Origin: Paludibacter sp. 221 | Lineage (GTDB): Bacteria > Bacteroidota > Bacteroidia > Bacteroidales > Paludibacteraceae | Direction of reading: 5' to 3' | Assembly: GCF_010501035.1 (NCBI RefSeq) | Contig: NZ_QVMH01000009.1 | Coordinates: forward strand, 1,074 to 49,532 | Length of the DNA stretch: 48,459 bases | Shown: piece by piece, positions 6,215-45,241 of the stretch | Layout: every line of letters begins with the position of its first letter | Numbering within the stretch: position 1 is the stretch's first letter | Translations under genes and position numbers: made by a program | Notes under the pieces: generated by a model | The model's input: the letters and a program-made list of their open reading frames with translations, nothing else | Database searches by the model: none | What the model was told of the DNA's origin: nothing

Positions 6215-6237
6215 TCTGCCGGAGTTTATTTAATAAA

Positions 6238-6276: not shown

Positions 6277-6293
6277 TCTCTTTTTTGTCTTAC

Positions 6294-6734: not shown

Positions 6735-6763
6735 TTTATTTATTTTATTCGGTTATTAAATAA

Positions 6764-6802: not shown

Positions 6803-6808
6803 GTTTCT

Positions 6809-14900: not shown

Positions 14901-17900
14901 TCCGCATTGCTTTCTATTTCTGCGATACGCTCATGTACCTCTGCTTCAGACAAATACTGATTAGTCCGTATATATTCTACTGAACGCCGCGTATCATCGT
15001 CAACCGTTTTTGCTATGGATACACCTTTCTTATTCCAATCAAGTATTTTGGTATTTAATAATGCATTCAGTGTCCGGCGGTTCTTGCGGGTTTCTATGCT
15101 GTTCAACGTTCTGTCAACCGCAAGCATGGCTGCCTCTACATCCTTTTTGCTTGTCGGATTATTCAAACCGGCCAATAAGCTGCGTAATTCTCCCAACCCC
15201 ATCCAATCAGCCAATTCGTTATTCAGATTATTCCTGATATAACTTTCCAATTCATGAGCTGTCTTCCGGGTACGTTCCAATATCTCTGCCTTATTGCCTC
15301 CGATTTCGTTTATATCACCTACTTTTCTTGCAATGGCATTGCGCTTATATCGTAGCTTTTTCAGCGCTACATTTGCGGTATTGAGCTCCTTGGTTATTTC
15401 GCTGATTTCATTTGCGATATTATTTCGCCAGGCATTTATTCGTACCGAATAGTCAAGTAATGATTCGCCCGATTCTATTTCCGGAGGAACTATTCTTTCG
15501 TTTCTTTCTTTTTCTAGTGCCTCTACTTGCTTTTCTGCTGAACTCTTTTCTGCTGACAAGCTATCTGCTTTTTGGGCAAATTCACTATTGCTGATTTCTT
15601 TTTTTAAATGAGCCTTCCGAAGAGCATCTTTTTTCTTTTCAATACTTGCTATTTTCTTATTCCATTCATTTATCTCTTTGGCAAACTCACCAATACTTTT
15701 ATCCGGAGAGTATTGGGGCTTTTCCCCATCCACCTGATAACGAATATCATTATCGGCAGGGTTAAATCCTCCTGTATTATCAGTAGCCGATTTTATTTGG
15801 TTAGCTGCAAAGGCAACGTAATCGTTCGTGGGAGTCGCTAAATCTCCATAATCAACACCATCACTTACGTTGTTGAAAATAACACCATCTTTTCTGCTTT
15901 TTCTCGCATATTCAGCCCATTCATAAGTATCTTTCCATTCTCCATTATGCTCGATGTCACTGAAATGAGAACCTTTTGCGTCTATCACTAAAGGATTTCT
16001 TAAATTTAAAAATGTTTCATACACCGTACTTCCATAACCGCCTGCGTTGTCAAATTCGCTATTAAAAAAATGCCCGCTTTGCTCATCATAAGTGTTTTTG
16101 AAGATGGTAAAATCACTGTGCAAAGTGTTATAATCCTTTGTCTTTTCATTCCAAACTTGTTTTACTTCTGTATTATTTGTTCCATGATATACCACCAACG
16201 GCTCACCATTTGCGTCCACCACCTTGCTTGCGGTTTCAGGAGAGTTTTCCCAGTCACCAAACCATTTTTTAAAATTAGTAGTCCGTACTTGCAGCCATTG
16301 TCTTTCATTCAAATTAGTAGGTTTCCCATTGGGAGCAAGCATGAAAGTGCCGTTATCAATGCTATTTTGCCTGACAGCATCCATTTCCGATATTTCCTGC
16401 AACCTCGCTTCTGTAGCCGGACGAATAATATCATCAATAACATGGATAAATCCGTTTACATCTTTCAATACATTACGCGGATGAAGGTCGGATACAATGT
16501 ATTTCCCATTAGTAAAGGTCGTGTCATTGATTTTTGTATAACCTTTTGACTGCATAAATCCGTCAATATCTTCTTGTGTAGCTTCAACAGCATCCGGCAC
16601 ATAATCCTGTTTTAGCACTACTTCAACAATAGGAATGCTATTCGCTCCAAAATCATATCCGGTTACTCCCTCTATGGAGTATGCATCCATCGGAAATATA
16701 CTGTTATGCGCCTCCACCTGTTCCAGTAGTTGCGAAACAAGCATATTCGAGTTCATAAGGTTGTTTGATTTGTAGATTGCTCCCGTTTCTGCGTCAATGG
16801 CTAAGGTGTTTTCATTGCCCCCGCCACGCATAGGCATACCGAGCGAGTACAAGTCGTCAATCCAAAAACCTTGTTCTTTGGCAAAGTCAACAGCAATACG
16901 TTTTTCAACGTCCTGTCTTTTTGTTATCGGGAGTTGCGAAGAATTTCCTCCTGTACCTTTTCTAAGTCGAGAGGTAAGACCCGTTCCGAAAGAGTTTTCA
17001 TTGCCCCTTCGTAGTTCAGTCTTTCGGCTTCCGAGTGGAATGTCGGAGTCTTCTTGTTGTGCGGTTGTTTCATCGTTTACAAATATACTGTTTTTTTGCG
17101 GATTTTCCAAATTATTATCTTGCTCTTTATCTACTGATTCTTGACTCTTGATTCTTGACTCTTGACTCTCTACAATCTTTTCTCCACCCAACAATTCACC
17201 CACAGCCAAATCCGTAAAATCCTCTAAGGTCATATCCTCAAGCTTAATGTCAGATGATATATTCAGCTTGGCTTTTATCCATCCCCACACCTCATTCAGC
17301 CACTCTCTTAATTTATTAAAGTTACTTTTCCCTTTTCCCTTTTCCCTTTGTACTAACAACGCCCCTTTATCTCCAATGGCCATAGCCAATGCCTCATCTA
17401 CCTTACCTTCTTCCGAAAGATTACTATAAACCGGATTTTCATTTACCCGCTTCCAGTACTCGCTGTCTTTTATCAGTTCAGCTCCTTTTTTATACAATTC
17501 CGAATTATTCTCTTTCGTAAAACTATTCCACAAATGCCCGAACTCATGGATAGGAGTATTAGCGTTCATTCGCTCCGGATTCAGGTAAACTACACCATCA
17601 GACGTAACAAAACCGTAAACCGTACCATTCGGATATTTCATGAACTGAACATTCAGCAATGTTCTCCAATCCGTATCAAGGTCGCTTATTTCTTCTACAG
17701 CAGCTAAAAAGTCAATAATTTCGTTCGCAGCATCTTCCCACTCTTTGATATTGTCAACCTGTTTTCTTATAACTCCTGTTTTATCTGAATAACCCACTGC
17801 CGAATTATCCTTAACATTCACCAGAGATAGGTTATGAACACTACTATCCGAATTTCGATTAAAGTTCCAAGAATGGTCTTTATTCATTCTGATTGAAATA

Positions 17901-20900
17901 GGCTGTCCACGATAAACCGCATCTACATATTCATTTCCATTGTTATACCGTTCTTTGACAAAGTCTATTAATTCCTGTGCACTTTCTGTCTCTATTTTCG
18001 GATTATGGTAAAACATGGCTCTGACACGAGAACTATTCTTTTTACCGGACAACTCCATTAATTTTCTATCAAACTCCCCTTTATCTGTCACAACATCCTT
18101 TGCCAAGCCAGTTTGTTTTAATTGCTCAATAAGAGAATCAAACATCTCTCTCGATATAGGAGTGAAAACTGTTGAAGACTTCTGAATAGAAGAAGTGTTT
18201 TGAAAACGAATTTCATTCGTGTTGTCATATCCCCACTCATTTATATCGTTACTATCCCACCATACATAGCGAATAGGAACTTCTTCTTTTATAATTTTAT
18301 ATTCACCTTCTCCAAACCGATGCTCTCCGTGCTGTTGTGCATATGATTCGGAAAATGTAACCCAGTCATATTGTTTTAATTTATCAACATCAATATCCTT
18401 TGGAATTGCCCTATATGCAGTAATAGTAATTTCAGAAAGATTCTTTCCTGCATTTATTGCTCTTTTTACATTGTTAATAGCTGTAAGGCTTTCATGCCCT
18501 GCTGTTGTATCATAAGAGTAGTATTTAGCCCCTACTCTTGTGTCAAAATAATTATCAGGCTGATTATGAAAACCTCTTACTACTTCCGATAGATTAAATT
18601 CATCTCCATTATCCAAAGCCTCTTGTAGTGATTCATATCCCATACTCGAAGCTGCATGCCCATCACGCCAATCTTCCCTGACGTTCTGAAAACGAATATT
18701 TTCGGCCGATTTATCAGGTTCTTGACTCTTAGTTCTTGGTTCTTGGTTCTGAATAGAAATATACTCCACAAACGGCTTTATTCGCCTGCCGTCCATTTCA
18801 GCCCATTTCCTAAACGTTTCTACATCGGTTGGAGTTATATCACCTAAACCCTGCCAACCATCTTCATAATTAGACAAATAAGCCTCTCTCGCTTCTTCCA
18901 ACGAATTAAAACCAATCATCACCTTATGCTCATCAAATACAAAGTCTTGATTCCTGGTTCCTGACTCTTGGCTCTGAACAGGGGCAACTTGGTCAACTAC
19001 ATAAATCGTATCACTCATCGGATTAGGACCAATAAACACATCTATCTGCTCACCGTCCTTGCTTTTTGTGCCGCGAATATATCCGTAGTCATTCTGCATG
19101 GTTACACTCCATTGAGTCCCATTTTCATCCACACCCGAACGCACAGAACCTTTAGGATTTTCTATGGTTACATCAAACCCCTGTATATCTACATGACCTT
19201 TCTTATAATTTCCTGCTTCTTTTTGCGCTTCGGTAGGATTGGTATTAACCTGTTCTTCTGCTTCTCTTATCTCATTATTTTTAGCTATATTTTGGGCAAA
19301 CTCAATTATATCTCCGGTAAATTTATTGTCTGTAGGAGCATTAATATCCTCTGCTGTGGAAGGATTAGAGAAAGATTCCTGACTATCAACTCTTGGTCCC
19401 TGATTCTCAATATCAATAATCTCAATTGCATGATTTATACTTTTCATCAATTCCTCTTCTGTTCCGGGAAACCAAGATTCTATTTCCATCCGTCGGGATG
19501 TATTGTCAACTCCAATACCATGTTCGCCAAGAGACACATGGTAACCGCTTTTCGTTGGTTTTATAGACAATACATAATTCCCCTTTTTAGCTAGTATATC
19601 ATCTCTACCTTCAAACAACGTCCCTTCCCTCCATGTACGCTTATCTACTGTATCAAAATAATCATTCAACCTGTTTTCTAAGTCCACGGGGGAGAAATTA
19701 TCACCATCCTTTGGAACTTCAACCGGAATAGCTTCTTGGGCTGTTTGTGCTTCCTGATTTTCAACCGGTTTGTTTTCAATGTTTGCATCCTCCAACTCTG
19801 CCGACAAGCCTTCTTTTATTTCCTGACTCTCGGTGCTTGATTCTTGACTTTCTTTAGGGGTTTCCCTCAGTACCCCAATAACTCCATCAATGCTATTCTT
19901 CTTGTTTTGTAATTCTGCAATCTCCGTACGAGCAGCTTTCCGTTGATTTATTGAATCTGCTTTTCCTAGTTTTTTTTGTGCGGAAGCTATCTTATTGTTG
20001 ATAACCTCTGCAACTGAAAGCAATTCTTTTATTGTTTCTGCCGTTCCTTCCTCACTCTCATAAAGCGTAGCAAATGCTTGCGGACTCTTTTCTAGTAATG
20101 CATCATAGTCTATTTCACCATTTTCTTGCTTGGGTGCCGATTGCCGTATAATTTCAATAGGGGATAATGATTCTTCTCTAACAACACCTGATTGTTCCAA
20201 AACTTCTTTTTCTCGGACGCTTTCCCGCAATGCTAACTCCGACTGTATCTCCTCTTCTAATTGAATCAGCTCATTTTCTTGCTGTTCACTCAATACGCCC
20301 GATTCCAACGCGCCATTTATCTGCAATAGTTGCTCGTTTAGTTCTTCTATTGTTTTATCTGGAAACAAGTTGTCAGCTCTTTCTTCATTCGTAAAATCCG
20401 GCTGTTCTACCATATCTCCAACCTCAGCGTCATTTTTCGGAACTTGTGCGAAATAATCGCGTACGGAGCTATTTATATAAGCCTCTTGTTGTTCATTCTC
20501 TTGGCTATACCGGTCATGTAATTGCGCTATACTATCTTCTAAGCTACTTTGGTCGACAATCTCCACATTCTCGGCTGTTGTAACCTGCACCTTACCAGCT
20601 TTATCAAAGTAATAAATTGCTTCATCCGAATTTTCAACATCAACAACATAAGGATTAATTTCGTTATTTTCATCAATACCCAAGGTCACTCCTCCAGTTA
20701 TAAAAACTCCCTGAGCATTTTCGTCTCCCAATATATTGGCCGACACTAATGTTCCGGTTTTTTGGTTCACGGAATTTTTCAATTGCTGCTCCGCGCTAAT
20801 TAAATTCTCATTGATTAAATTCTGACGGGCAGCCTGCAACTGCTTCTCCAACGCAGCTGTAGCTATATAATTAACGATAGCCTCTTTTTGGTCAGTCGAC

Positions 20901-22237
20901 AAAGATTCATCTTGCAATACTTGAGATACAATCTGCTTTTGGTCCTCAATCACCAAGCCCGCTACATCAGGATTAAATGTGAAACCGGTATCTTGCAATG
21001 CTTCATCCATCGCCCTTTTAGCTTCAACAAAAGTAATCTTTGAATATACATAGTTATTTACATTGTCAAAATCAAAGTTTTCCGGTAATACAGGATTTAC
21101 TATATTTTCAAGTATAGTGTTTTGTTTCCGGTTCCGTCGTGCTAAGTCTCCGGCACGATAAGCGGATGTTCCGGCAGTAACACCGCCGAACTGAGCGCCT
21201 CCTCCGGCACCATATACAAAAGCATCCAATACGCCCTCAAATGGCCTGTATGTTTCCGATACTCCCGTAGCAGCGTCTATTGCGTTTTCGCCTAACTGGG
21301 AAACAACCTCTTCAGCTCCTTCTGTTACGGTTTGAATAAGTGCGTTGATTCCGCCTTTTTTTAGTATACCTTTAACGGTTGTTTCCGTCATTTTAGAAAG
21401 GAAAGGCTCTATCATCTTGGCATCCACCTTTGCGCCCAACTTTTCTGTTATACCTTCAAGCGAACCTGAAACGGCAGCATTAAGCATCTTTTTCCATTCG
21501 GGCATATCTTTTGTGTCGGGGTCACTCTCCAGTTCATTCAATTTTTGCCCTGCAGCAGAAGTTACTATAAGTGGTAGCCCTGCACCCGGTATCATAGCAA
21601 CAAGAGAAGTTGGAGCTGATTCTGTAGCAGTTAACATAATTTCGCCCAAACCGCTTAAAATCTTACCTTCTTTAAACAGGTCGGAATATTGCACTTTACG
21701 TCCTGCACCCGTTTTAGGGTCTATCATCGTGCCATACCTGTCTGCCCGTTGCGATATTTCAGCTCCTTTCTCTTGCAATTTATTGCCTAACCCTAAATTC
21801 TCCTGCTTATATTCTCCTGCTATAACACTATTCATCACGTGGTCGGGAATATAATCTCCTCCCATGGTAATTGGTATTCTCGAACCTTCTGCTGCTTTTT
21901 CTACCATGCTCAAAAGTCCTGCACCTGTATTCACTACACCTGCACCGAATTTCTCCAGCAAATCACCTGCCCATGTATTCCAGAATCCTTTTTCTCTTTC
22001 TACAGCTTGTTTTTTCGACTGATAAGGGGCTGCTTCATTAGTTGGCGGGAAACCCATATCAACCGAAAATTGCTCATAGGGAACAGTAAAGTCCTTATCG
22101 CGCGATGTTAGGTTATCATACAATCTACGACGTTTATTTGCATCTTGCATGTCAGTAGAAAACTGTTCTAAACTTATGGTAAACCCGCTGTCACGCGACG
22201 TTAAATTATTATGTAATTTAGTCAAATTCTCATTCAT
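11903..22237 (-). CDS. Giant polyvalent virion protein, about 3444 aa
   Basis: The start is ATG 22237; the frame extends 2 codons further to a TTG. Approximate residue map. 4-62: twin motif (NNLTSRD/DNLTSRD). 1030-1130: InPase-like (GYIRGTKSKDGEQIDVFIG). 1215-1340: ART-like (AYRAIP, WVTFSESYA, INEWGYD). 1500-1680: metallopeptidase with HEFGHLW near 1565. 1790-1950: kinase-like, with IYKSNN, SDLHPRNVL and VIDD. 2000-2165: second ART (VVYHGTNN to NDIRYQ). 2180-2420: coiled coil. 2450-3446: helical virion-core region with a hydrophobic stretch near 3160. These modules match domains described from phage and ICE polyvalent proteins, thought to be injected with DNA and to disarm host defences. Unlike a typical virion gene, its linkers contain 7-bp DNA repeats. 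Domain calls are by motif only. Confidence 0.8.
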   Translation of the reverse strand: MNENLTKLHNNLTSRDSGFTISLEQFSTDMQDANKRRRLYDNLTSRDKDFTVPYEQFSVDMGFPPTNEAAPYQSKKQAVEREKGFWNTWAGDLLEKFGAGVVNTGAGLLSMVEKAAEGSRIPITMGGDYIPDHVMNSVIAGEYKQENLGLGNKLQEKGAEISQRADRYGTMIDPKTGAGRKVQYSDLFKEGKILSGLGEIMLTATESAPTSLVAMIPGAGLPLIVTSAAGQKLNELESDPDTKDMPEWKKMLNAAVSGSLEGITEKLGAKVDAKMIEPFLSKMTETTVKGILKKGGINALIQTVTEGAEEVVSQLGENAIDAATGVSETYRPFEGVLDAFVYGAGGGAQFGGVTAGTSAYRAGDLARRNRKQNTILENIVNPVLPENFDFDNVNNYVYSKITFVEAKRAMDEALQDTGFTFNPDVAGLVIEDQKQIVSQVLQDESLSTDQKEAIVNYIATAALEKQLQAARQNLINENLISAEQQLKNSVNQKTGTLVSANILGDENAQGVFITGGVTLGIDENNEINPYVVDVENSDEAIYYFDKAGKVQVTTAENVEIVDQSSLEDSIAQLHDRYSQENEQQEAYINSSVRDYFAQVPKNDAEVGDMVEQPDFTNEERADNLFPDKTIEELNEQLLQINGALESGVLSEQQENELIQLEEEIQSELALRESVREKEVLEQSGVVREESLSPIEIIRQSAPKQENGEIDYDALLEKSPQAFATLYESEEGTAETIKELLSVAEVINNKIASAQKKLGKADSINQRKAARTEIAELQNKKNSIDGVIGVLRETPKESQESSTESQEIKEGLSAELEDANIENKPVENQEAQTAQEAIPVEVPKDGDNFSPVDLENRLNDYFDTVDKRTWREGTLFEGRDDILAKKGNYVLSIKPTKSGYHVSLGEHGIGVDNTSRRMEIESWFPGTEEELMKSINHAIEIIDIENQGPRVDSQESFSNPSTAEDINAPTDNKFTGDIIEFAQNIAKNNEIREAEEQVNTNPTEAQKEAGNYKKGHVDIQGFDVTIENPKGSVRSGVDENGTQWSVTMQNDYGYIRGTKSKDGEQIDVFIGPNPMSDTIYVVDQVAPVQSQESGTRNQDFVFDEHKVMIGFNSLEEAREAYLSNYEDGWQGLGDITPTDVETFRKWAEMDGRRIKPFVEYISIQNQEPRTKSQEPDKSAENIRFQNVREDWRDGHAASSMGYESLQEALDNGDEFNLSEVVRGFHNQPDNYFDTRVGAKYYSYDTTAGHESLTAINNVKRAINAGKNLSEITITAYRAIPKDIDVDKLKQYDWVTFSESYAQQHGEHRFGEGEYKIIKEEVPIRYVWWDSNDINEWGYDNTNEIRFQNTSSIQKSSTVFTPISREMFDSLIEQLKQTGLAKDVVTDKGEFDRKLMELSGKKNSSRVRAMFYHNPKIETESAQELIDFVKERYNNGNEYVDAVYRGQPISIRMNKDHSWNFNRNSDSSVHNLSLVNVKDNSAVGYSDKTGVIRKQVDNIKEWEDAANEIIDFLAAVEEISDLDTDWRTLLNVQFMKYPNGTVYGFVTSDGVVYLNPERMNANTPIHEFGHLWNSFTKENNSELYKKGAELIKDSEYWKRVNENPVYSNLSEEGKVDEALAMAIGDKGALLVQREKGKGKSNFNKLREWLNEVWGWIKAKLNISSDIKLEDMTLEDFTDLAVGELLGGEKIVESQESRIKSQESVDKEQDNNLENPQKNSIFVNDETTAQQEDSDIPLGSRKTELRRGNENSFGTGLTSRLRKGTGGNSSQLPITKRQDVEKRIAVDFAKEQGFWIDDLYSLGMPMRGGGNENTLAIDAETGAIYKSNNLMNSNMLVSQLLEQVEAHNSIFPMDAYSIEGVTGYDFGANSIPIVEVVLKQDYVPDAVEATQEDIDGFMQSKGYTKINDTTFTNGKYIVSDLHPRNVLKDVNGFIHVIDDIIRPATEARLQEISEMDAVRQNSIDNGTFMLAPNGKPTNLNERQWLQVRTTNFKKWFGDWENSPETASKVVDANGEPLVVYHGTNNTEVKQVWNEKTKDYNTLHSDFTIFKNTYDEQSGHFFNSEFDNAGGYGSTVYETFLNLRNPLVIDAKGSHFSDIEHNGEWKDTYEWAEYARKSRKDGVIFNNVSDGVDYGDLATPTNDYVAFAANQIKSATDNTGGFNPADNDIRYQVDGEKPQYSPDKSIGEFAKEINEWNKKIASIEKKKDALRKAHLKKEISNSEFAQKADSLSAEKSSAEKQVEALEKERNERIVPPEIESGESLLDYSVRINAWRNNIANEISEITKELNTANVALKKLRYKRNAIARKVGDINEIGGNKAEILERTRKTAHELESYIRNNLNNELADWMGLGELRSLLAGLNNPTSKKDVEAAMLAVDRTLNSIETRKNRRTLNALLNTKILDWNKKGVSIAKTVDDDTRRSVEYIRTNQYLSEAEVHERIAEIESNAENGILSPEDTQTLGSLEIIRLLSAINVGHNNVRQIDDEIRRANVEATQQIEQLKKEDPVNNKALKAAYRHRRNIIQSLQQERVAEQQYTNKAYDNVINELNSLINTGKSKLIEQKEHELKRRNEIARESIEAVYDKEIKTQAQDKELSNWERVKDILAHNKVKEFLLSPLGSFNFMLKSLDRNHPIGAGSMYERWMKGKEGALQAEINFEKGWRSFKEEVAKKAEEIFGEKFYQVINDSRKDSGAAVTYKTFEKEGENGELVPVTTTASMTKGELLYIYMTWKQAEGREKLRNMLIDEAVIDEIKETLGDKYIAFADWVQSEFLPSRRTKYNDTHKRVFFTSMAAVENYFPLKYNEKDISKPVEIGRELDFGLPSTMTGAIIGRKRNKNEIALNANAFDILMQNGHEMEEWNAYARLRKDMNSLLSNKHFRNLVDANDRTAFEKFKDSARIALKAKRDKVLDPESWAGRFNSKLAGAAIAFRINTAFKQILSYPAFMAYSANPVYQARLISNLNPYMLYRNYRWALDHLPGFKERVSSGAFGNEKLLSDGWQNSEQAAGKQKILGKAGVKADDFFNVLTKIGMKPNQFIDGLAISAGGRAIYDYKKSIYKKQGLTEEEANERALFDAAIAGNESQQSAMDVFLSPIQKSETLWARGLTTFMNANFGYLRKQVEGVLQLARSKKQYEALVRKNLEAGMNEEAAKSNALKTVLNADGKAVLNAVMFGVMLNTIWQLAEKALWGTGDDDDEKKAEIIKAIATSPIDNILGGSMISAVIDGFEPQDLMSSEIKKAYNEIVKATKAEGFISEEVALAATKTFIKFNTGINFDTWKNIYNGYEKGIKEKGGAAMAYQYFTNVPQSIRIATAQKIQQGESIGDYAKRVSLAYDNEKRFERELKSIIDKYLFSDEGDMTRFNNAIEEAKEWQVLDKGRDSLSEVAKKRLKELDENKKQYKNLLKLEKDAVSDIRKYLKGQKKYTDDRMDAKINTTRKKYDEIVDALE
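17135..17169. repeat. In-frame heptamer repeat (TGATTCT/TGACTCT x5)
   Basis: Five tandem 7-bp units encode, on the minus strand, VESQESRIKSQESVD, a 7-residue period. It lies in the linker after the metallopeptidase module of the giant protein. Confidence 0.85.
17326..17349. repeat. In-frame heptamer repeat (TTTTCCC x3)
   Basis: Three exact TTTTCCC units plus TTTG encode REKGKGKSN in the giant protein. It is a different heptamer from the neighbouring TGACTCT family. Confidence 0.75.
18719..18753. repeat. In-frame heptamer repeat (TTCTTGA/TTCTTGG)
   Basis: Five units, TTCTTGA CTCTTAG TTCTTGG TTCTTGG TTCTGAA, encode IQNQEPRTKSQEPD between the InPase-like and first ART-like modules. Confidence 0.8.
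18944..18978. repeat. In-frame heptamer repeat
   Basis: Units GTCTTGA TTCCTGG TTCCTGA CTCTTGG CTCTGAA encode VQSQESGTRNQDF within the giant protein, following the InPase-like motif. Confidence 0.75.
19374..19408. repeat. In-frame heptamer repeat
   Basis: Degenerate units GATTCCT GACTATC AACTCTT GGTCCCT GATTCTC encode ENQGPRVDSQESF, a linker before the InPase-like module. Confidence 0.65.
19820..19854. repeat. In-frame heptamer repeat
   Basis: Units TTCCTGA CTCTCGG TGCTTGA TTCTTGA CTTTCTT encode KESQESSTESQEIK in the N-terminal third of the giant protein. Confidence 0.7.
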
Positions 22238-22239
22238 AA

Positions 22240-23262
22240 TCAATACCAGCCATTTGTACTACCTGTTTGGGTAGTCGTCTGTTCTACATTCTGTTGTACT
22301 GTCGAAGATGCCTCCTGACGGTTTAAATGAGGTGGATAGCTCAAAGGACGCCAGATGAAATTATTCATATCAAACCCGGGCGCTTGCTTTTCTAATGTGC
22401 CATTCTCATATTCCTGCAGGTAAGCATCTACAAATCTGTCTTCGTCTGCATATTTTGTAACTATTTCACTACGTCCATCATCATCCATTACCTTCTTCTG
22501 AATAAGTAAACCGTATTTTTTCAACAAATCCGGACGGGATTTTATAATGTACGACATCATGTTCGATTTCTCAGCCGGAGTAACAGTGTATTGCCGCCGT
22601 TCGCCATATTCGCGAGTTACGACAGGAGCGGTAGTTGTAGTATTATTTTTATTTGGTGTTACGTAAAATTCTGTACGGGGACCCGGTTTGGTAGGAGGAT
22701 TAGCTCTCGCCCGTTCCTTAATAAGCTTCACTTCGTTATCAAAAGCCTTCTTTTGATAGTTCAATTTGTCTTGCCTGTCTTGTTCTCTTGCTATTTCTTC
22801 TTGCGTCTGCCTATCTTTATACATCAACCATTGCCTTTTCTCGCCACGGGCATCCATAGCTGCTTTCAACATCTGGTTGAAGTCCTGCATCTCTGCATTG
22901 CCCCGCATGGTCTGATATCGGGTTAAATCATTATTATACTTATCCCGAATTGCGTCCAACCGGGCATTAGTCGTCTGGCTACTGGTGTTTCCCTCCCTGT
23001 TACGGATATGCGCTCCTTGGCCATGCGCGAACATCTCTGCAAGCGACGAGAAACTATCGGTCAACGCCGATGCAAATTTTGCGCGCTTTTCCTGCTCCGG
23101 GGTAATTTGCGGTTCAGGCTTGCTATAATTACTCATTATCGCCTCAACGATAGGTTTACCCCCTTCTTTCCAATCGCTTACAAACTGGTTGTAATTAAAT
23201 GCGGGCATTTCTTCTATCTGCTGTTCGTATTGGTTGTATGATTGTTTTTTTTCTTCTGCCAT
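22240..23262 (-). CDS. Hypothetical internal virion protein, 340 aa
   Basis: A hydrophilic, Gln/Asn/Lys-rich protein. It has a helical, probably coiled-coil middle (about residues 90-200, with KDRQTQEEIAREQDRQDKLN), a Pro/Thr/Asn-rich linker (RANPPTKPGPRTEF), and a Gln/Thr-rich C-terminus (TVQQNVEQTTTQTGSTNGWY). Its stop codon is 2 nt from the ATG of the giant polyvalent gene, so the two are probably translationally coupled. That suggests it is packaged or ejected with the giant protein, perhaps as part of the internal core. No family recognised. Confidence 0.6.
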   Translation of the reverse strand: MAEEKKQSYNQYEQQIEEMPAFNYNQFVSDWKEGGKPIVEAIMSNYSKPEPQITPEQEKRAKFASALTDSFSSLAEMFAHGQGAHIRNREGNTSSQTTNARLDAIRDKYNNDLTRYQTMRGNAEMQDFNQMLKAAMDARGEKRQWLMYKDRQTQEEIAREQDRQDKLNYQKKAFDNEVKLIKERARANPPTKPGPRTEFYVTPNKNNTTTTAPVVTREYGERRQYTVTPAEKSNMMSYIIKSRPDLLKKYGLLIQKKVMDDDGRSEIVTKYADEDRFVDAYLQEYENGTLEKQAPGFDMNNFIWRPLSYPPHLNRQEASSTVQQNVEQTTTQTGSTNGWY

Positions 23263-27822: not shown

Positions 27823-27857
27823 CTAGTCACCGGTAGCTAGTAACTAGTAGCTACCCA
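27823..27857. repeat. Heptamer repeat (CTAGTNA family)
   Basis: Units CTAGTCA CCGGTAG CTAGTAA CTAGTAG CTACCCA lie between portal and tail protein genes, running into the portal stop codon. Confidence 0.8.
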
Positions 27858-29908
27858 CCAACTCCCTCCGCCTGTTGCATTATCATTTCCTGTACGTCAG
27901 GAGGCAAGCTCGATAACTGCTGCTGTACCTCCGGCGAAAATTGGTATTGCTGTAATTCCTGCTGCAATTCAGGTGGGAGCTGCGCTCCTGCCATTGGCTG
28001 TCCGGCCATAGCTGCATCTTTCACTTCCTGTTCTCTCTTGTTCATATAATCCAGTAGCTTGTCTTTAAATGGCAGGTTCCCTGCTTCTATCATCCCTCTT
28101 AAGTCAAGTACGTTATTGGTGTCAAATTGCTTCAGTTGGAACAACAGGTCATTTACCATCAGGCGATATGCAGGCGTGTCCGTATTTTCAACTACTGCTA
28201 TCTCTACATCAATGTTTTTTACTTTGGGTGGGTCATAAAGTAGTCGTTTCCCGGAGTTTTTATCAAAAATGTATCTTCGTTCATCGTAATACTGCTGCAT
28301 CAGCTGTACATTCATCTTATCCCTCCGTACACGGAACGAGTTGATTGCCTCAAATATACCGTTCAGGCTGGTCGCGGAGTTTTGGCTTTGCTGTGCATAC
28401 ATTTGCGCAGGAGTGCCTGAGGTTGGCTGCTGGCCTTGCAATGCCCCGTAAACACCGCTCACATTCTCCGATAAGCGCAAATACATATTAACCACGTTTA
28501 GCGGTGTAAATGCCTGAGCCACCGTGTTTACATATTCGGGTTTAGTATGGGGTGTTCTCGGGTCGGGTTTATAAGGAATGACGGAATCGTAATCAGTCGC
28601 TTTATCTTGTATATACTCTATTCCGTAACCATTTTCATCGTCTATGTAGTTGGTAGGCATGAACAGCAGCGACTTTGCGCTATACTTCGACAGCAGCTCC
28701 GAAATCGCCGATAGGCGGTTTATCTGCTTATTGGTATCTATCAGGTCTTTGACAAATGGGTATATCTTGCCACAGAAGAAATCATGCAGCTCAAACACAA
28801 TCGGAGGCATCTCATGCCAATACGGGTTCATCCCCTCATCCAATACCTCGCCACAGGGTGTAAGGAAATAGTATTTCCAGAAATTCGCGGTACCCCATTC
28901 ATAGTCTATCAGCAACATATCTTCCTCATCCACACCCATTGCGCCCTGTTCCTGTATTCTTCGGACGTTTTCCTTTTTAATATCCGATTCTTTTATCTCG
29001 AAATCGGGATAATACGTACCGTGCAGGTAATCATGTATCCAAAAGCACTCTTTACTCTCTTTACGCCATATTTCAATCACCCTGCATAAGCCATACGCCT
29101 CCGTACCGGGAACAAAGAAATCCAACTCCAAACGCTGGTCGGTAAATGTTTCCGACATTTCATAAATACGCTCCTCGCTTCTCCCACCGTAAAGCCGACG
29201 CAGTTTCTCACCCCTGCTTTTACTGCCTTTGGAGAATAACCCGACAATATCATCTGCCGACACATCGTAAAAATAACCTACTAACGAGCAGTCCGTATAG
29301 CGCGGGTCTTTCATTGTGTTATCCACGAAGAAAGAAAAGGGGTCGATAAAATCGTTTACTACATCCTTTTCTCCGTCTCTGCTTGCGAAATGGTTCTTTG
29401 TCACGGATACTCCGGATATAAGCAATTGAAGCAACTCCGCCATATCCAGTTTCCACAGCTCATTCTTACGGTACAGGGCATGAAGCGTAGCGGTAAGTAC
29501 TTCGCTCTCCGCTTGGTTCTCGTCTTTTTGTGCTATACAGGATGGGAGTGTCTTGTTCGAACTCCAAACACCTACAATTGTGCGTAATACATTCCGGATG
29601 ATGTTATACTGGCTAGGTTGCAAGCCCTGCTCTACAAGCAAGGCACGCTCTGTCACGATACGGTGCTTCTTTGCGTCATACACACGGTCCGAAAATTGGT
29701 CGCCAAAAACAAATTCTTCGTTCCGGCGTATATCTGTGCGCCACTGCGCCATCGATAGCCAGCAGTTGTAGGCAGACATCAAAAGGTTTGATTCGTGTTT
29801 TATATCACTATCCTCTAGGTCTGCTCTGCGTTGCTTCCTTTTCGCATTTTGCGCCGTTTTGCTGTACTTTCGTTGGTAGGCTTGTATATTCCTGCGGGTT
29901 TCTTGCAT
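27851..29908 (-). CDS. Portal protein, 685 aa
   Basis: Size, position at the head of the late block, and sequence character fit a podovirus-type portal. There is a basic N-terminus with Tyr and Lys/Arg, a QWRTDIRRNEEFVFGDQFSD region, an acidic middle, and the helix LIDTNKQINRLSAISELLSK, typical of the clip/stem part of portals. A Gln-rich C-terminal barrel-like tail (PPELQQELQQYQFSPEVQQQ) follows. It forms the dodecameric DNA channel at the capsid vertex. The 19-bp late motif lies 43 nt upstream of its ATG. Confidence 0.85.
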   Translation of the reverse strand: MQETRRNIQAYQRKYSKTAQNAKRKQRRADLEDSDIKHESNLLMSAYNCWLSMAQWRTDIRRNEEFVFGDQFSDRVYDAKKHRIVTERALLVEQGLQPSQYNIIRNVLRTIVGVWSSNKTLPSCIAQKDENQAESEVLTATLHALYRKNELWKLDMAELLQLLISGVSVTKNHFASRDGEKDVVNDFIDPFSFFVDNTMKDPRYTDCSLVGYFYDVSADDIVGLFSKGSKSRGEKLRRLYGGRSEERIYEMSETFTDQRLELDFFVPGTEAYGLCRVIEIWRKESKECFWIHDYLHGTYYPDFEIKESDIKKENVRRIQEQGAMGVDEEDMLLIDYEWGTANFWKYYFLTPCGEVLDEGMNPYWHEMPPIVFELHDFFCGKIYPFVKDLIDTNKQINRLSAISELLSKYSAKSLLFMPTNYIDDENGYGIEYIQDKATDYDSVIPYKPDPRTPHTKPEYVNTVAQAFTPLNVVNMYLRLSENVSGVYGALQGQQPTSGTPAQMYAQQSQNSATSLNGIFEAINSFRVRRDKMNVQLMQQYYDERRYIFDKNSGKRLLYDPPKVKNIDVEIAVVENTDTPAYRLMVNDLLFQLKQFDTNNVLDLRGMIEAGNLPFKDKLLDYMNKREQEVKDAAMAGQPMAGAQLPPELQQELQQYQFSPEVQQQLSSLPPDVQEMIMQQAEGVGG

Positions 29909-39503: not shown

Positions 39504-40607
39504 TTATGAGTTAATAATCGAGGGCATAATAAGCAATGTAATGCCTTCTGTTTTGGGAGTGATGAGAGCTGCTCTCTCCGGTTCCGAAAAGTGCAAGGTA
39601 CAGGATGATGTTTCAACCGAATTAATCAGTGCAATCAGGTAAGATGCTTTAAAGCCTATCCTAAGGGAGATTCCGGAGTAATCTACAGGCATTGTTTCCT
39701 TTGCCGACCTGCTGTAGTCCACATCTTCAGCATTTAAAGTGATGGTATTTGTATTAAGCTCAAGGGTCATTAACGACGTTGCTTCATTCGCAAATATGGC
39801 AATACGTCTCAATACTCCTAAGAAATCACTTTTATCAACCTCAACCGATAATTGGTTGTCTGGAATAACACTTCTGTAGTTCGGATAACGCCCCTCTATC
39901 AGCCTGTATATAAAACTGTATCCCTTCGACCTGATTAATATGTTTTTAAGGGATATGCCCACTTCTACTGTATCATCACAAACAGCAAGCATAGATGCAA
40001 TCAGTTTAGCGGCTTTGGACGGGATAATAGCTCCCGTTTCAAACACGGAATCAAAAGGATATTCACGCAAAGCAAGCACATGGGCGTTAGTAGCTACAAA
40101 AGATAATTTTCGTTCCTTCAATTCCATGTAAACACCGCTCATCACCGGACGAAGTTCATCGTTACCCACACAACCTATCACCTGATTGATACCCTCAATG
40201 AGCAATTTTTTCTCTACCGACAAACAGGTATTAGCGCTATTATCTTTTATTACAGGGAATAAATCAGGATGATGCGTACCTAACTCAAACGTACCGGAAC
40301 TATATTTCACTTCCGTTTTAAAATCATTCACCTCGATAACCAATGGTTGGTCCGGAAGCTCACTGATTGCATCAAGCATCTTTTTTGCGTCAATACACCA
40401 ACGTGCACTACCCGAAATGCTTATACACTCTATTTCTACCGTTATCATACCCGATATATCAGTTCCCGATACTTGTAATGTATTTTCTTCCGCCTCAAGC
40501 AAAAACTGTTCGGCTATCGGGTTTACTTTGTTTGGCTGTACTATTTTTCCAACCAGACGGAGCTTGTTTTGTAACTCCGATTTTGAGACTTTAATTGTTG
40601 TGTTCAT
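39504..40607 (-). CDS. Phage-encoded DNA polymerase sliding clamp (DnaN-like), 367 aa
   Basis: Length and sequence match bacterial DNA polymerase III beta subunits (about 366 aa, three repeated domains). Recognisable elements are the start MNTTIKVSKSELQNKLRLVG, LRPVMSGVYMEL in the middle, RLIEGRYPNYRSVIP, and the C-terminal end with a hydrophobic groove region. It encircles DNA and tethers polymerases and other partners. No phage polymerase is in the window, so it may act with a host or off-window polymerase. Confidence 0.9.
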   Translation of the reverse strand: MNTTIKVSKSELQNKLRLVGKIVQPNKVNPIAEQFLLEAEENTLQVSGTDISGMITVEIECISISGSARWCIDAKKMLDAISELPDQPLVIEVNDFKTEVKYSSGTFELGTHHPDLFPVIKDNSANTCLSVEKKLLIEGINQVIGCVGNDELRPVMSGVYMELKERKLSFVATNAHVLALREYPFDSVFETGAIIPSKAAKLIASMLAVCDDTVEVGISLKNILIRSKGYSFIYRLIEGRYPNYRSVIPDNQLSVEVDKSDFLGVLRRIAIFANEATSLMTLELNTNTITLNAEDVDYSRSAKETMPVDYSGISLRIGFKASYLIALINSVETSSCTLHFSEPERAALITPKTEGITLLIMPSIINS

Positions 40608-40618: not shown

Positions 40619-40930
40619 TTAAGTAAAGTAAAAAGTTCTACCTGTTCCGAAGCTCTCTTGTTTGATTGTTGTCTGAAATGGGAATTCTGTTTTAGGTATT
40701 TTATCTAGAGCCTCTTTTATTTTAGCTGCATTAGTGAAAAATTTATATTCGTTCCCATTATATTTTATTTTTAAGATATATCTTCCATCCCCATGACGGG
40801 TGGTTATGTCTTTTTCAAAGTCCAATACTTCTATTTCACAATTAATTATTTCGGTTATTTGTATTTTGGGAACTTGAAACATATTTTTACCAGTTTCAAT
40901 CTCAATCCCAAGTTCTGAGAATTTCTTCAT
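40619..40930 (-). CDS. Hypothetical protein coupled to the RT gene, 103 aa
   Basis: The start (ATG 40930) lies inside the RT gene, 26 nt before the RT stop, so the two genes overlap and are probably translationally coupled. The protein looks beta-rich with KIKYNGNEYKFFTNAA and ends in FGTGRTFYFT. It does not look like the four-helix Avd accessory protein of known DGRs. It could be a DGR accessory protein of new type, or an unrelated gene shared with the replication module. Confidence 0.55.
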   Translation of the reverse strand: MKKFSELGIEIETGKNMFQVPKIQITEIINCEIEVLDFEKDITTRHGDGRYILKIKYNGNEYKFFTNAAKIKEALDKIPKTEFPFQTTIKQESFGTGRTFYFT

Positions 40931-41897
40931 TGATTATGGTTTTGATTAAATGTTTGGAGTTACAATGTTTTGCCCATCCAAGCCATGAACATATTTTTAT
41001 CTTATATTCTTTGGCAGTAAGGTTTTTCTTGTTGAGTTTAGCGACACGCTTACAGAACCGTTTTTTGATTGATTTACGCATCAGAATGTATTGATGGTAG
41101 AATACGTACCCTACAAAGTCAATCCCCCGTTTATTGACAGGAAATACCTGATAATTGTGTTTTACCTGTAGCTTGAGGTTATTGTTCAAGTATTGCTCTA
41201 TCTCTTTGAAGAGGATATGCAGATATGGTTTATCCAGTGCTAAAATGACTATATCATCGGCATAGCGGTAATAGTACTTAACTTGCTTCTGTTCTTTCAT
41301 CCAATGGTCGAAATAAGACAGGTAAAGGTTTGCAAGGAACTGTGACAGATAATTTCCGATAGGCACTCCGGGTGCTGAATCTATTATGCCATCAAGCAGG
41401 TTTAAAAGGCGTGAATCCTTTATCTTCTTCCGAATAATGATTTTCATTACTTCGTGGTCGATACTTGGATAGAACTTCTTTATATCAAGTTTGAGGCAAT
41501 ACCGGGTTTCTTCTACATTTTTCATATCACGCCGGATGTGTTTTAAGGCTCCGTGTATTCCACGTCCCTTGATACAGGAATATGTGTTGGATATGAAAAT
41601 GGTATTCCATATACTTTCCATCACATTCATTATTGCGTGGTGCACTACTCTGTCTCTAAACGGGAGACGGTAAATGGTCCGTTCTTTTGGGTCGTGAATG
41701 ATGAAAATGTCGTATTCGGATGTTTTGTATGTACCGGAAAGAAGTTCGTGTTGTATCTGATTTAGATTTTCGTCCAGATTCTTCTCAAAGAGCTTTACTC
41801 CATACCGATTTGACTTTCCCTGTCTGGCTTTTTGGTAAGCCAGATAGAGATTATCAAATTCACATACTTTTTCGAATAAGTTATTTATCCGTTTCAT
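40902..41897 (-). CDS. DGR-type reverse transcriptase, 331 aa
   Basis: RT motifs in order: LKLDIKKFYPSIDH (RT3; residues 135-148), GVPIGNYLSQFLANLY (RT4; residues 177-192), YADD catalytic pair (RT5; 212-215), FVGYVF (261-266). The IGNYLSQ form (IGxxxSQ) replaces the Q-G-x-x-x-S-P of most RTs and marks DGR reverse transcriptases. The enzyme copies the TR RNA with adenine-specific errors and directs the product into the variable repeats. The start codon is 111 nt downstream of the TR on the same strand. No maturase or endonuclease domain is seen, ruling out a group II intron. Confidence 0.92.
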   Translation of the reverse strand: MKRINNLFEKVCEFDNLYLAYQKARQGKSNRYGVKLFEKNLDENLNQIQHELLSGTYKTSEYDIFIIHDPKERTIYRLPFRDRVVHHAIMNVMESIWNTIFISNTYSCIKGRGIHGALKHIRRDMKNVEETRYCLKLDIKKFYPSIDHEVMKIIIRKKIKDSRLLNLLDGIIDSAPGVPIGNYLSQFLANLYLSYFDHWMKEQKQVKYYYRYADDIVILALDKPYLHILFKEIEQYLNNNLKLQVKHNYQVFPVNKRGIDFVGYVFYHQYILMRKSIKKRFCKRVAKLNKKNLTAKEYKIKICSWLGWAKHCNSKHLIKTIINEEILRTWD

Positions 41898-41979
41898 AGC
41901 CTTTGCTTTTCTTATCGGAGCGTTCGGGTTATCCTACTAACACCTTTTGAATTGTTGTTTTTTGCCAAGGGGCAAGGTC

Positions 41980-42098
41980 TTTGTCTTTTTAGAAAATCAT
42001 TTCTGCATAGGTGCGAACTGCTACCTGCATTCGCATTCGAGTTATCGTAATTCGAATCGTTGAACGTGAAGCCTGAAGGAGACAGCCACAAAGACAAA
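41980..42098 (-). repeat. 9-bp inverted repeat flanking the TR
   Basis: TTTGTCTTT at 41980-41988 and AAAGACAAA at 42090-42098 flank the TR. They could pair to close a stem around the TR-containing RNA. A small hairpin (TTGCC / GGCAA, 41962-41975) lies between this and the RT gene. Confidence 0.5.
42008..42084 (-). other. DGR template repeat (TR)
   Basis: A 77-bp non-coding template between the third target gene and the RT gene. Read on the minus strand in the target frame it would encode SPSGFTFNDSNYDNSNANAG onward, with AAC/AAT codons at the variable positions, the usual design of DGR templates. The three VRs (42190-42266, 42612-42688, 43111-43185) match it except at template adenines. I counted 14, 15 and 12 differences respectively, every one at an A of the minus strand. 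Confidence 0.95.
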
Positions 42099-42111
42099 CA
42101 ACCTTTTGTTT

Positions 42112-42507
42112 TTATCCTAATTGAACGTCTTTCCAAACATCCAAGAACGTTTTTCCTATGTAATCGGAGGTTTCCTCATTCAGAACGCGAAGGCGCGAAC
42201 CGCTACCCGCACACGCAATCGAGCGATCGTAAAGCGAACCGTAGAACGCGAAGCCCGAAGGAGACATGATAAACCAAGGATACCATTTGGGTTGACTAAA
42301 GTTGCCCCAGTCTATTTCTTCCGGATTATTTTCTTTTTCTATTTTCCGGGCTGCTTCTACTATGATTTTTGCAGTATAGTCTGCTTCTTCATGTTTTCGC
42401 ATGTCTTCCGGATAAACAGAAAAATCTATTTTAGGACGTCCGGTTTCGTTATAGGCATCTTCTACTGTTTTTAATCTATCTTCCAGTTGTTCTTTTAATG
42501 TTTTCAT
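42112..42507 (-). CDS. DGR target protein 3, 131 aa
   Basis: Shortest of three tandem paralogues. A helical N-terminus shares RLKTVEDAYNETGRPKIDFS with target 2. Then come WYPWFIMSPSGFAF, the variable segment YGSLYDRSIACAGSGSRL, and a constant C-terminal helix (KTFLDVWKDVQLG). No signal peptide or membrane segment, so presumably cytoplasmic. It is shorter than targets 1 and 2 (160 aa each) at its N-terminus. Fold not identified: unlike classic DGR targets the variable part is followed by about 28 constant residues. Confidence 0.85.
   Translation of the reverse strand: MKTLKEQLEDRLKTVEDAYNETGRPKIDFSVYPEDMRKHEEADYTAKIIVEAARKIEKENNPEEIDWGNFSQPKWYPWFIMSPSGFAFYGSLYDRSIACAGSGSRLRVLNEETSDYIGKTFLDVWKDVQLG
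42190..42266 (-). other. DGR variable repeat in target 3 (VR3)
   Basis: Aligned to the TR without gaps at an offset of 182 bp. Fourteen differences, all at TR adenines, changed to G, T or C. Sequence similarity to the TR stops at both ends of this interval. Confidence 0.93.
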
Positions 42508-42533
42508 TCTTGCTATTATTTATAGTTGTTAAT

Positions 42534-43016
42534 TTATCCTAACTGTATTTTCTTCCAGATGTCAAGAAATTGCTTTGCAACGTAGATTGCTTTCTCTCGC
42601 GTTTCAAAATGAAGGCGCGAACCGCTACCCGCATACGCAGCCGAGTAAGCGCAAAACGAAACGTCGAACGCGAAGCCCGAAGGAGACATGATAAACCATG
42701 GACGCCATTTGGGTTGATTATCATTGTCCCAATCAGGAATCCAACCTTCGTTTATTGCCTCTGAAATGACATTCATTTCATATTCGGCTTCAAACTTTTC
42801 TCTCATATCTTTAGGAAGGTTGGAGAAGTCTATTTTAGGCCGTCCAGTAAGTTTGAAGGCATCTTCTACCGTTTTTATCTTTAATGTAACATCTTCACTT
42901 TCAAAAATTTCTTGTCCGTAAATTGCTTCGAGTAGCTTTTTCCCGTCGTTATCAGCATTACGCCATTTCTTTATGATTTCTGCTTTTGGAATGCTTAATT
43001 GTTCGTCTATTTTCAT
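42534..43016 (-). CDS. DGR target protein 2, 160 aa
   Basis: I choose ATG 43016 (MKIDEQLSIPKAEIIKKW); the longer frame starts with TTG at 43064 inside target 1. With this start it has the same length as target 1. Domain pattern: helical N-terminus, linker with KIKTVEDAFKLTGRPKIDFS, then WRPWFIMSPSGFAF, the variable segment DVSFCAYSAAYAGSGSRL, and the conserved tail with AKQFLDIWKKIQLG. Confidence 0.87.
   Translation of the reverse strand: MKIDEQLSIPKAEIIKKWRNADNDGKKLLEAIYGQEIFESEDVTLKIKTVEDAFKLTGRPKIDFSNLPKDMREKFEAEYEMNVISEAINEGWIPDWDNDNQPKWRPWFIMSPSGFAFDVSFCAYSAAYAGSGSRLHFETREKAIYVAKQFLDIWKKIQLG
42612..42688 (-). other. DGR variable repeat in target 2 (VR2)
   Basis: Aligned to the TR without gaps at an offset of 604 bp. 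Fifteen differences, all at TR adenines. It is the most divergent of the three from the template. Confidence 0.93.
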
Positions 43017-43035
43017 ATTGATTGTATTTTTAAGG

Positions 43036-43518
43036 TTATTGAATAAATTCTCTCCAAAGGTCAAGGAACTGTTTGCCTGAATAGTTTGCTAATTCTTCAG
43101 ATTTGTAGCAAAGGCGCGAACCGCTACCCGCATCCGCAGTCGAGCGACCGCAATTCGAATCGTAGAACGCGAAGCCCGAAGGAGAATCGTTACATTCAAA
43201 CCATGGATACCAACGGCGCACATCGGAATCGTAAATATCAAACTCCCGTCCTTCATTAAGGGCCTTGGTAATGGTTTTAAGTTTACGATAAGTGATTTCG
43301 TCTTTTGTAAAGCCAGCTTGGAGTAATTCGTCCTCGTTTATAGGTTTTTCGCCCAACTCGACACAAGCATCCTCATATGTTTTTATACGGTCGGTTACTT
43401 TTGAAGAAAAGAAGTCTTTCCCTGCTTTTTTTTCTAAAAGGGATTTTACTTTGTCAGAAGCTCCGGCGTATATTTGGCGGGCTTCTTGCGGATTGATGGT
43501 AAATGTTTTTTCATTCAT
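43036..43518 (-). CDS. DGR target protein 1, 160 aa
   Basis: First target gene of the cassette, 2 nt from the winged-helix gene upstream. The pattern is as in targets 2 and 3: helical N-terminus (INPQEARQIYAGASDKVKSL), RIKTYEDACVELGEKPI, then RWYPWFECNDSPSGFAF, the variable segment YDSNCGRSTADAGSGSRL, and the constant tail (GKQFLDLWREFIQ). Related small proteins with a WYPWF...GSRLCFKS signature are common in Bacteroidales genomes and phages, with unknown function. No export signal. Confidence 0.87.
   Translation of the reverse strand: MNEKTFTINPQEARQIYAGASDKVKSLLEKKAGKDFFSSKVTDRIKTYEDACVELGEKPINEDELLQAGFTKDEITYRKLKTITKALNEGREFDIYDSDVRRWYPWFECNDSPSGFAFYDSNCGRSTADAGSGSRLCYKSEELANYSGKQFLDLWREFIQ
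43111..43185 (-). other. DGR variable repeat in target 1 (VR1)
   Basis: Aligned to the TR without gaps at an offset of 1103 bp. Twelve differences, all at TR adenines. It is the closest of the three to the template. The similarity ends one residue earlier at its 5' side than in VR2 and VR3. Confidence 0.93.
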
Positions 43519-43520: not shown

Positions 43521-43799
43521 TTATATTTCTATTAATTTATGTCCTTGTGAATGGATGCTTTCAATTTCGAAGAAACTCTTGAACTTTTTCCGCAGTTTGC
43601 AGATATAAACATCCATGCTACGGCGGGTAAATTCGTCTACATTCTTCCAAATAGAGGAAAGTGAGGTGTCACGTTCTACAATTTCTCCTTTATTGCTGTA
43701 AAGCAGTTGTAACAGTAGAAACTCTTTTTCGGTGAGCCGGGTAGTCGTACCGTTAACCGATACTATACGCTGTGCGTCATTAAAAATAACTTGGTTCAT
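43521..43799 (-). CDS. OmpR-type winged-helix DNA-binding protein, 92 aa
   Basis: The likely start is ATG 43799 (MNQVIFNDAQRIVSVNGTTT); a TTG at 43835 extends the frame. The product is a lone effector domain of the OmpR/PhoB class: RLTEKEFLLLQLLYSNKGEI, the SSIWKNVDEFTRRSMDVYIC recognition region, and the wing SIHSQGHKLIEI. There is no receiver domain, so control by phosphorylation is not expected. Its gene is 2 nt upstream of the first DGR target and shares the operon, so it may control the DGR. Confidence 0.75.
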   Translation of the reverse strand: MNQVIFNDAQRIVSVNGTTTRLTEKEFLLLQLLYSNKGEIVERDTSLSSIWKNVDEFTRRSMDVYICKLRKKFKSFFEIESIHSQGHKLIEI

Positions 43800-43834
43800 A
43801 ATAATGTTTTTTATATTGTTCTTATTTTCATTCA

Positions 43835-43924
43835 AGTACAGGCTCTACTCTTCACGCCTGAAGAAAAAAAATGTGGTTTTTATTTGCTCTGATAATCAAT
43901 GTTTATTTTATTAGAGCCTGTACT
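43835..43924. promoter_or_regulatory. 12-bp inverted repeat in the intergenic gap upstream of the DGR operon
   Basis: AGTACAGGCTCT (43835-43846) and AGAGCCTGTACT (43913-43924) are perfect inverse copies, 66 bp apart. They frame the 128-bp gap between the small HTH gene and the winged-helix gene, where the promoter for the DGR operon would lie. Possible binding sites for the winged-helix regulator. Confidence 0.5.
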
Positions 43925-43927: not shown

Positions 43928-44125
43928 TTATGAATATGAGTTCCAGTATCGTTTTATCTCTGCTCCGGTATAAAGCCTCCGCTTATTTACACGGTTATAG
44001 ATACATTTTATATATCCTTCCTCCGTATGTTTCCGAAGCGTATCACGGCAAATACCCAAAATCTTGGCTGTTTCTCCAATAGGATATCGGTCATTATCTT
44101 TTATTTCCGGCATCGTAGTTGTCAT
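43928..44125 (-). CDS. Excisionase/MerR-like small DNA-binding protein, 65 aa
   Basis: I choose ATG 44125, whose ATGA overlaps the stop of the 78-aa gene; the frame extends to 44185. The core YPIGETAKILGICRDTLRKH followed by RRLYTGAEIKRYWN is a winged MerR-like helix-turn-helix of the type found in phage excisionases and small regulators. Located near the lysogeny switch, it may be an excisionase or a Cro-like regulator. Confidence 0.7.
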   Translation of the reverse strand: MTTTMPEIKDNDRYPIGETAKILGICRDTLRKHTEEGYIKCIYNRVNKRRLYTGAEIKRYWNSYS

Positions 44126-44358
44126 ATGTTTCTTATTTTTGTACAATACACTCTTACACCGTCTTCTATCTCTTTTTCCGAACAAGTAAACATTTTTCCT
44201 GTTTTTGGATTTTTGTTCAATCTCGATACTGCCGATTTTAAAGTACCTAAAACAACATCCCTGTATTTGAAATCCAAAAAATCCCCCGGCTGCATCTGTA
44301 ACAAGGTTGCCTTCACATCTATTTTTTTTACTGGTTTTAGCCTCTCTTTTTTATCCAT
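44122..44358 (-). CDS. Early phage regulator-like protein, 78 aa
   Basis: The best start is ATG 44358 (MDKKERLKPVKKIDVKATLL), because the promoter box at 44428-44435 makes the longer frame from 44430 unlikely. It contains GDFLDFKYRDVVLGTLKSAV followed by SRLNKNP, a pattern of small Bacteroidales phage proteins with a helix-turn-helix-like basic stretch. First gene of the leftward early operon, so likely an immediate-early regulator. Confidence 0.65.
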   Translation of the reverse strand: MDKKERLKPVKKIDVKATLLQMQPGDFLDFKYRDVVLGTLKSAVSRLNKNPKTGKMFTCSEKEIEDGVRVYCTKIRNI

Positions 44359-44518: not shown

Positions 44519-45241
44519 ATGGAAACAACTATTAATCAAAGAATTAGTATTATATCAGAGAAACTTTGCGATAACAATATTTCTGAATTAGCACGCATTA
44601 CAGGGGTGAATCAACCAGCTTTAAGAGATATTGTTGGTAAAAAACAAGCAAAGCCAAGATACGAAATACTAAATAGAATTGTAGATAATTCGACATTAAA
44701 CATTAATGCTGATTGGCTTTTAACAGGCAGGGGAGAGATGTTGAATACACAGCAGAAAGCTAAGCCGTATAAAACAAAGAAAGAGCAAAAAACTATTATT
44801 ATTAACTCTACCGACGAATGGGAAGTGAATAATAAAATAACAGAAATGAATAATAATGGCTGGAATGCTATTAACACATCCATATCCGAAGCCGGATTGC
44901 AATCCGGTGGGGTACAACGCCACACAGTAATTTTATTTGAAAAATACGATTCTTTCAACACCACCTCAATAGTAGCCTCGCCGGTTCCGGAATACAATAA
45001 GATAGATGGAAACAATCAAGATGAACTAATAAATGAGCTCAGAAAAGAAATAAAATCCTTGGAACAGGACAAGTTAGATTTAAAACAAGACAAAAAAATT
45101 TTACAACAGGATAAAGAAATACTAAATAGGGAGCTTGAGAATAAACAAAAAACAATTGATAGACTTTCGGCTGTTAAAGAAAATGATTTTATCGAAAACG
45201 CTAAAAAAGGGGCAACTTATAAGGATAGATTACGCAAATAG
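44519..45241 (+). CDS. Phage repressor (CI-like HTH protein), 240 aa
   Basis: The N-terminal helix-turn-helix ISELARITGVNQPALRDIVG (residues about 20-39) is followed by LLTGRGEMLNT, a motif common in Bacteroidales phage XRE-type repressors. Instead of a LexA-type protease domain, it has a beta segment and a long C-terminal coiled coil (ELRKEIKSLEQDKLDLKQDK). It is transcribed away from the early operon across the two operators. It would maintain lysogeny; the lack of a Ser/Lys protease implies induction other than by classical RecA cleavage. Confidence 0.8.
   Translation: METTINQRISIISEKLCDNNISELARITGVNQPALRDIVGKKQAKPRYEILNRIVDNSTLNINADWLLTGRGEMLNTQQKAKPYKTKKEQKTIIINSTDEWEVNNKITEMNNNGWNAINTSISEAGLQSGGVQRHTVILFEKYDSFNTTSIVASPVPEYNKIDGNNQDELINELRKEIKSLEQDKLDLKQDKKILQQDKEILNRELENKQKTIDRLSAVKENDFIENAKKGATYKDRLRK

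Follow-up and report, generated by a model that had tools for sequence, protein, structure and literature searches.

Which proteins does a diversity-generating retroelement (DGR) rewrite when three target genes stand side by side, and what assists its reverse transcriptase (RT) in doing so? These questions are raised by a locus of Paludibacter sp. 221 (GCF_010501035.1; draft genome of 3.1 Mb in 102 contigs). We analyzed positions 1,074–49,532 of the forward strand of contig NZ_QVMH01000009.1, a stretch of 48,459 nt that we call the window and to whose positions the coordinates below refer. An earlier note on this DNA had described a DGR here whose three tandem targets share one template. The reading that we consider probable is that this DGR copies its template with errors at adenines into three non-virion phage proteins, with the product of the gene after the RT (P103; 103 amino acids) standing in for Avd. 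The locus is remarkable for the type of protein that is targeted and for the gene that follows the RT, not for having three targets.

The cassette lies on the minus strand, in the order of the target genes T1, T2 and T3, the template repeat (TR), a match to the RT-17 RNA, the RT gene and P103. We aligned TR with the variable repeats (VRs) of the targets by program, without gaps and with symmetric scoring (+1/−1) that does not favor adenines. The realignment returned three paralogous genes, each with a gapless repeat matching the one template, exactly at the gene coordinates given before: T1 (43036–43518; 160 amino acids), T2 (42534–43016; 160 amino acids, 39% identical to T1 in alignment A1) and T3 (42112–42507; 131 amino acids, a short form that the family profile matches from position 35 onward). 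TR was correctly recognized but spans 42005–42084 rather than 42008–42084. VR1 (43108–43185), aligned with TR over 78 nt, has 13 mismatches, all at adenines, of which 20 were available (chance P 3.5e-10). Over 76 nt with 19 adenines each, VR2 (42612–42688) has 15 mismatches (P 1.4e-12) and VR3 (42190–42266) has 14 (P 1.7e-11), again all at adenines. The earlier statement that only template adenines differ therefore holds for 42 of 42 mismatches; its counts were right for T2 and T3 and one short for T1 (12), which makes the total 42 and not 41. A 51-nt pattern derived from TR, with N at the adenines and up to three mismatches allowed, matched the whole draft genome four times, at TR and the three VRs; there was no other match, so this search revealed no tail gene among the targets.

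The RT gene (40902–41897; 331 amino acids) encodes the motifs IGNYLSQ and YADD and matched the profiles RVT_1 (E 7.6e-19) and phrog_1423 (E 1.8e-131). It is thus of the DGR type, as had been proposed, but lies outside the interval 41902–43518 quoted for the element. Between TR and the RT gene, positions 41902–41979 matched the RT-17 RNA family (Rfam RF03020) with 46 bits against a gathering cut-off of 40.4, and RF03020 was also matched in 5 of the 14 other loci searched.

For comparison with relatives, an RT search kept 80 viral loci and a target search added 18 loci from genome contigs. In 107 TR–VR pairs, drawn from 53 of 57 listed viral loci (five further matches had no template), mismatches occurred at 1525 of 2306 adenine sites and 31 of 6322 other sites, under a scoring that penalized adenine mismatches less. 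Variation at such sites in related phages, which the earlier note had suggested as a check, was indeed seen: between the near-identical contigs L038 and L039, 9 of the 44 VR adenine sites differ and none of the other VR sites (115), template sites (81) or remaining sites (2317) does. In 20 of 28 near-identical pairs there was no VR difference, the majority of these pairs being identical throughout. The adenine-limited mismatches, the DGR-class RT, the RNA-family match between TR and RT and the relatives differing only at such sites together support, at the sequence level, the assignment of the locus to the DGRs, with three targets in tandem and a single template. Because the three genes differ from one template only at adenines, the adjacent RT likely rewrites all of them from that template.

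The set of three had been regarded as unusual. It is real, but it was given too much weight, since DGRs with several VRs are known and two targets are the rule in this lineage. Several VRs were reported for 28.6% of 948 DGRs (PMC6642488), and up to eight targets per system have been described (PMC10743442). Among the 67 loci whose sequence extends 2,200 bases or more upstream of the RT, 41 have two targets of the T family, 6 have three, 3 have one and 17 have none detectable by profile; with identical RTs collapsed (59 loci), the respective numbers are 35, 6, 2 and 16. Besides the window's record, the three-target loci are L016, L067, L071, L100 and L106, one target of the last being set 2.3 kb apart. 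Copy number changes too, as L016 (three copies) and L019 (two) differ by one missing target copy in a compared region that is otherwise identical; L017, also with two copies, differs from L016 at four other sites as well. Having three targets is a variation on a theme already known.

The adenines of the template do not all behave alike. Six of them (42074, 42067, 42026, 42019, 42012 and 42008) appear as the same base in all three VRs, five as G and one as T, and 12 differ between the VRs. We examined the edges of the rewritten stretch in 78 unique TR–VR pairs from 35 templates, with positions counted from the CAC of CACCTATG. Over the common stretch −66 to +5 in the window, the six fixed adenines account for 18 of 44 differences. 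At the 3′ edge, the VR entries opposite template adenines are G in 75 of 77 cases at −6, G in 75 of 76 at +1 and T in 75 of 78 at +5, the last being a silent site. At the 5′ edge they are G in 49 of 50 cases at −54 and in 35 of 35 at −60, and between −48 and −8 most adenine sites show several bases among the VRs. In BPP-1 direction is set by IMH/IMH*, described as 21 bp with five mismatches (PMC3240598). By analogy, the fixed 3′ adenines may form an IMH*/IMH-like signal that tells the template from the targets, with a predicted IMH* at 42008–42019 (minus strand; −6, +1 and +5 as G, G and T in the VRs) and a mutable core of about 41 nt, predicted at 42021–42061 (−48 to −8). One result sits uneasily with this division by position. 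The silent site −13 (42026) is G in 18 of 18 VR entries though the adenines on both sides vary, and G stands in 187 of the 190 entries opposite adenines in a C-A-G context; context and position are confounded.

The targets are small proteins, not tail fibers. They belong to phrog_11581, annotated as of unknown function, have no Pfam match and contain no strongly hydrophobic segment (best 19-residue mean, 1.04). In 120 homologs listed of 414, T1 included, the VR columns 119, 120, 122, 124, 125, 127 and 129 reach entropies of 2.5–3.6 bits beside nearly invariant columns, and a few columns outside the VR reach 3.0–3.1 bits. The VR is internal, followed by 24 codons (stop included) in T1 and by about 25 in T2 and T3, whereas a C-terminal position is described as near-universal among DGR targets (PMC8144416). 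An AlphaFold2 model of the target (mean pLDDT 85.7) has a helical N-terminal half and poorly resolved VR blocks; a structural search of the PDB with it gave no match, and the C-type lectin fold was not matched by a model whose VR region has a pLDDT of only 54–78. For comparison, Benler 2021 (PMC8008677) describes a second, non-structural DGR target in Quimbyvirus and reports a C-type lectin domain for it, and a 2025 Nature paper places second variable regions near counter-defense genes (PMC12629997). In LoVEphage and Versailles, the T homolog is itself a DGR target (19 of 19 and 15 of 16 mismatches at adenines, respectively), served by a template common to a tail gene. In the window lineage, the cassette serves the T family.

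P103 (40619–40930, minus strand; phrog_19665) overlaps the RT end by 29 nt at its start. Its model (pLDDT 89.2) comprises three strands, a helix and two strands, and many of its structural matches in the PDB are OB folds. The P103 domain lies directly downstream of the RT or in one open reading frame (ORF) with it in 74 of 75 matches. When genomes were searched without requiring an RT, 8 of 8 matches, including the window's own, stood beside a DGR-type RT. P103 shares an ORF with the RT in L059, L061, L063 and L097 and in the named phages p00, BT-TP2 and BS-TP4, and in ANMV-1 and vir525 it follows the RT as a gene of its own. The Avd model PF22296 matched none of the 32 P103-bearing records (it detected Avd of BPP-1, the positive control, with E 2.2e-37), nor the window's contig, nor the viral record G001, which has the same RT and T1. 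P103 stands beside or is fused to DGR-type RTs in records that yielded no Avd, whose place it likely takes; the structural models predict an OB-like fold for what would be a so far overlooked family of DGR accessory proteins. Many DGR RTs lack Avd, given that an Avd-like domain was reported to co-occur with 62% of non-redundant DGR RTs in complete genomes (PMC8934634).

Three further observations concern these proteins. In L067, the RT frame at 5869–6882 has lost its native C-terminus, and a P103-like tail closes it. The RT of a crAss-like phage (cr55_1; L111, 4572–6023) has a C-terminal extension that by eye resembles a degenerate P103, and the P103 profile did not match it up to E 10. Elsewhere in the host draft genome there are seven bAvd-like matches to PF22296, three of them over the cut-off, on contigs C46, C7, C31, C36 and C37.

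DNA-binding regulators are encoded upstream of T1 (43521–43835 and 43928–44185), followed by a divergent gene with weak repressor matches (44519–45241); the cassette thus appears to lie close to where the leftward early block of the prophage begins. Downstream of P103 come a DnaN homolog (39504–40607) and PcfK- and PcfJ-like genes. Farther away, a gene at 11903–22243 encodes a 3446-residue protein with InPase, Kinase-PolyVal and ART-PolyVal domains, a 'polyvalent' phage protein by the class name of the Pfam models, and an 849-residue protein at the window edge (690–3239) has glycosyltransferase matches, including the O-antigen conversion type.

In BPP-1, template RNA and spacer recruit the RT, copying begins in IMH* and the mutagenized copy replaces the VR (PMC12875486). 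A similar course may be supposed here. The template RNA with its spacer would recruit the adjacent RT, and copying would begin in IMH* at the 3′ edge of the template. The RT would miscopy adenines as it reads the template RNA, and the mutagenized copy, with some 41 nt rewritten, would take the place of the corresponding stretch in each target. P103 would do the job of Avd, probably through its predicted OB-like fold, which would keep hold of the single-stranded copy or of the template RNA. The targets, as non-virion phage proteins, might use the randomized patch to bind a shifting set of partners within the host cell, defense proteins for example; this early, intracellular binding role is the weakest part of our proposal. 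A broader claim, to which we give even chances, is that P103 is a DGR-specific OB-fold family that acts together with the RT, at times within one chain as in hankyphage, and replaces Avd across Bacteroidota phages and archaeal viruses and, at the same time, that the whole DGR of this lineage is dedicated to a tandem early intracellular binding protein that provides a repertoire against host defense proteins, not receptors.

Ordinary divergence of paralogs, without reverse transcription, would account for the relatedness of the T genes; the base pattern, with all 42 mismatches at adenines (P < 1e-9 for each target), refutes it, and we give it practically no weight. It seems somewhat unlikely that the targets are virion components, such as small receptor-binding or tail-tip proteins, and that the cassette shifts host range as in BPP-1. 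Several points do weigh in favor of that explanation. The LoVEphage and Versailles templates each hit a tail protein and a T homolog, so one binding surface could serve both; the Versailles T homolog is annotated 'tail protein'; and packaging and head genes begin about 2–3 kb after P103 in L034 and L042 (about 2–4 kb for the terminase and portal of L034 or the head protease of L042). In the window, however, the portal gene (27851–29908) is 12 kb from the cassette, whose neighbors are the regulators, DnaN and Pcf-like genes, and the T homolog lies between NinB and a replisome organizer in Versailles and among methyltransferases in LoVEphage. In the three relatives inspected (L042, L034 and L100), the neighbors include genes for a DnaB-like helicase, a primase, replication initiation and methyltransferases. 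A survey with queries drawn from such cassette loci themselves found, among 38 cassettes, 8 with methylases and 11 with replication genes, and either in 0 of 11 RT loci without T-family targets.

That the cassette is a relic, its variation made in the past by a DGR that no longer works in this prophage, seems to us unlikely. Such cassettes can decay, as L093 retains targets, a template-like ORF and a piece of P103 with no RT match; in the window, the RT, TR, RNA, P103 and all three targets are open, the VRs have diverged from one another at the 12 sites noted above, and the relatives L038 and L039 have changed at VR adenines. It is less likely still that P103 is a phage single-strand-binding protein that follows the RT by chance. 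The predicted OB-like fold and the DnaN homolog next after P103 would suit such a protein, but not the unselected matches that all lie beside DGR-type RTs, the fusions to the RT in several phages and the P103 genes that also adjoin RTs serving tail targets. Copying by a DGR into non-virion targets, with P103 in the place of Avd, remains the reading that we prefer. What adds to the interest of the locus is the set of dedicated non-tail targets and, most of all, P103. A cassette of small non-tail targets also lends itself to a clean inquiry into the benefit that phages draw from hypermutating proteins other than receptor binders.

Among known systems, BPP-1 (mtd, avd, TR, brt) has in common with the window the TR/VR arrangement, adenine-only changes, an RT downstream of TR and fixed 3′ mismatches (PMC3240598). 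It has Avd and a single tail target, whereas the window has P103, no Avd that we could find and three small targets. Its VR stands at the gene end and is followed by a hairpin, whereas the VRs of the window end about 25 codons before the gene end; perfect stems of at least 6 bp after the VR occurred in 16 of 72 regions, no clear excess over 40 simple shuffles (mean 10.1, maximum 18). The archaeal virus ANMV-1 carries a P103 homolog directly after the RT; its target, AdtA, lies near tail-fiber genes, and a figure of the paper draws an Avd ORF (PMC4372165). Such ORFs of nanoarchaeal DGRs are stated there to be Avd-like in charge and size. LoVEphage and Quimbyvirus (PMC8008677; PMC8525569) appear to be the same kind of phage, because they share the prophage relative CP011531 (PMC8525569). 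LoVEphage resembles the window in having a non-tail target of the T family, the adenine rule and a P103 domain at the RT end, but its template also serves a tail fiber and its T homolog lies about 13 kb from the RT, whereas the targets in the window are of the T family only and in tandem. The hankyphage p00 (PMC6199706; PMC12135933) also has the P103 domain, as the C-terminal part of an RT that is only distantly related to that of the window (profile E 6.6e-62) and serves a tail-fiber target. Hankyphage DGRs are reported to be active in culture (PMC12135933), and this conserved partner within the RT chain of an active system makes the question of what replaces Avd a testable one.
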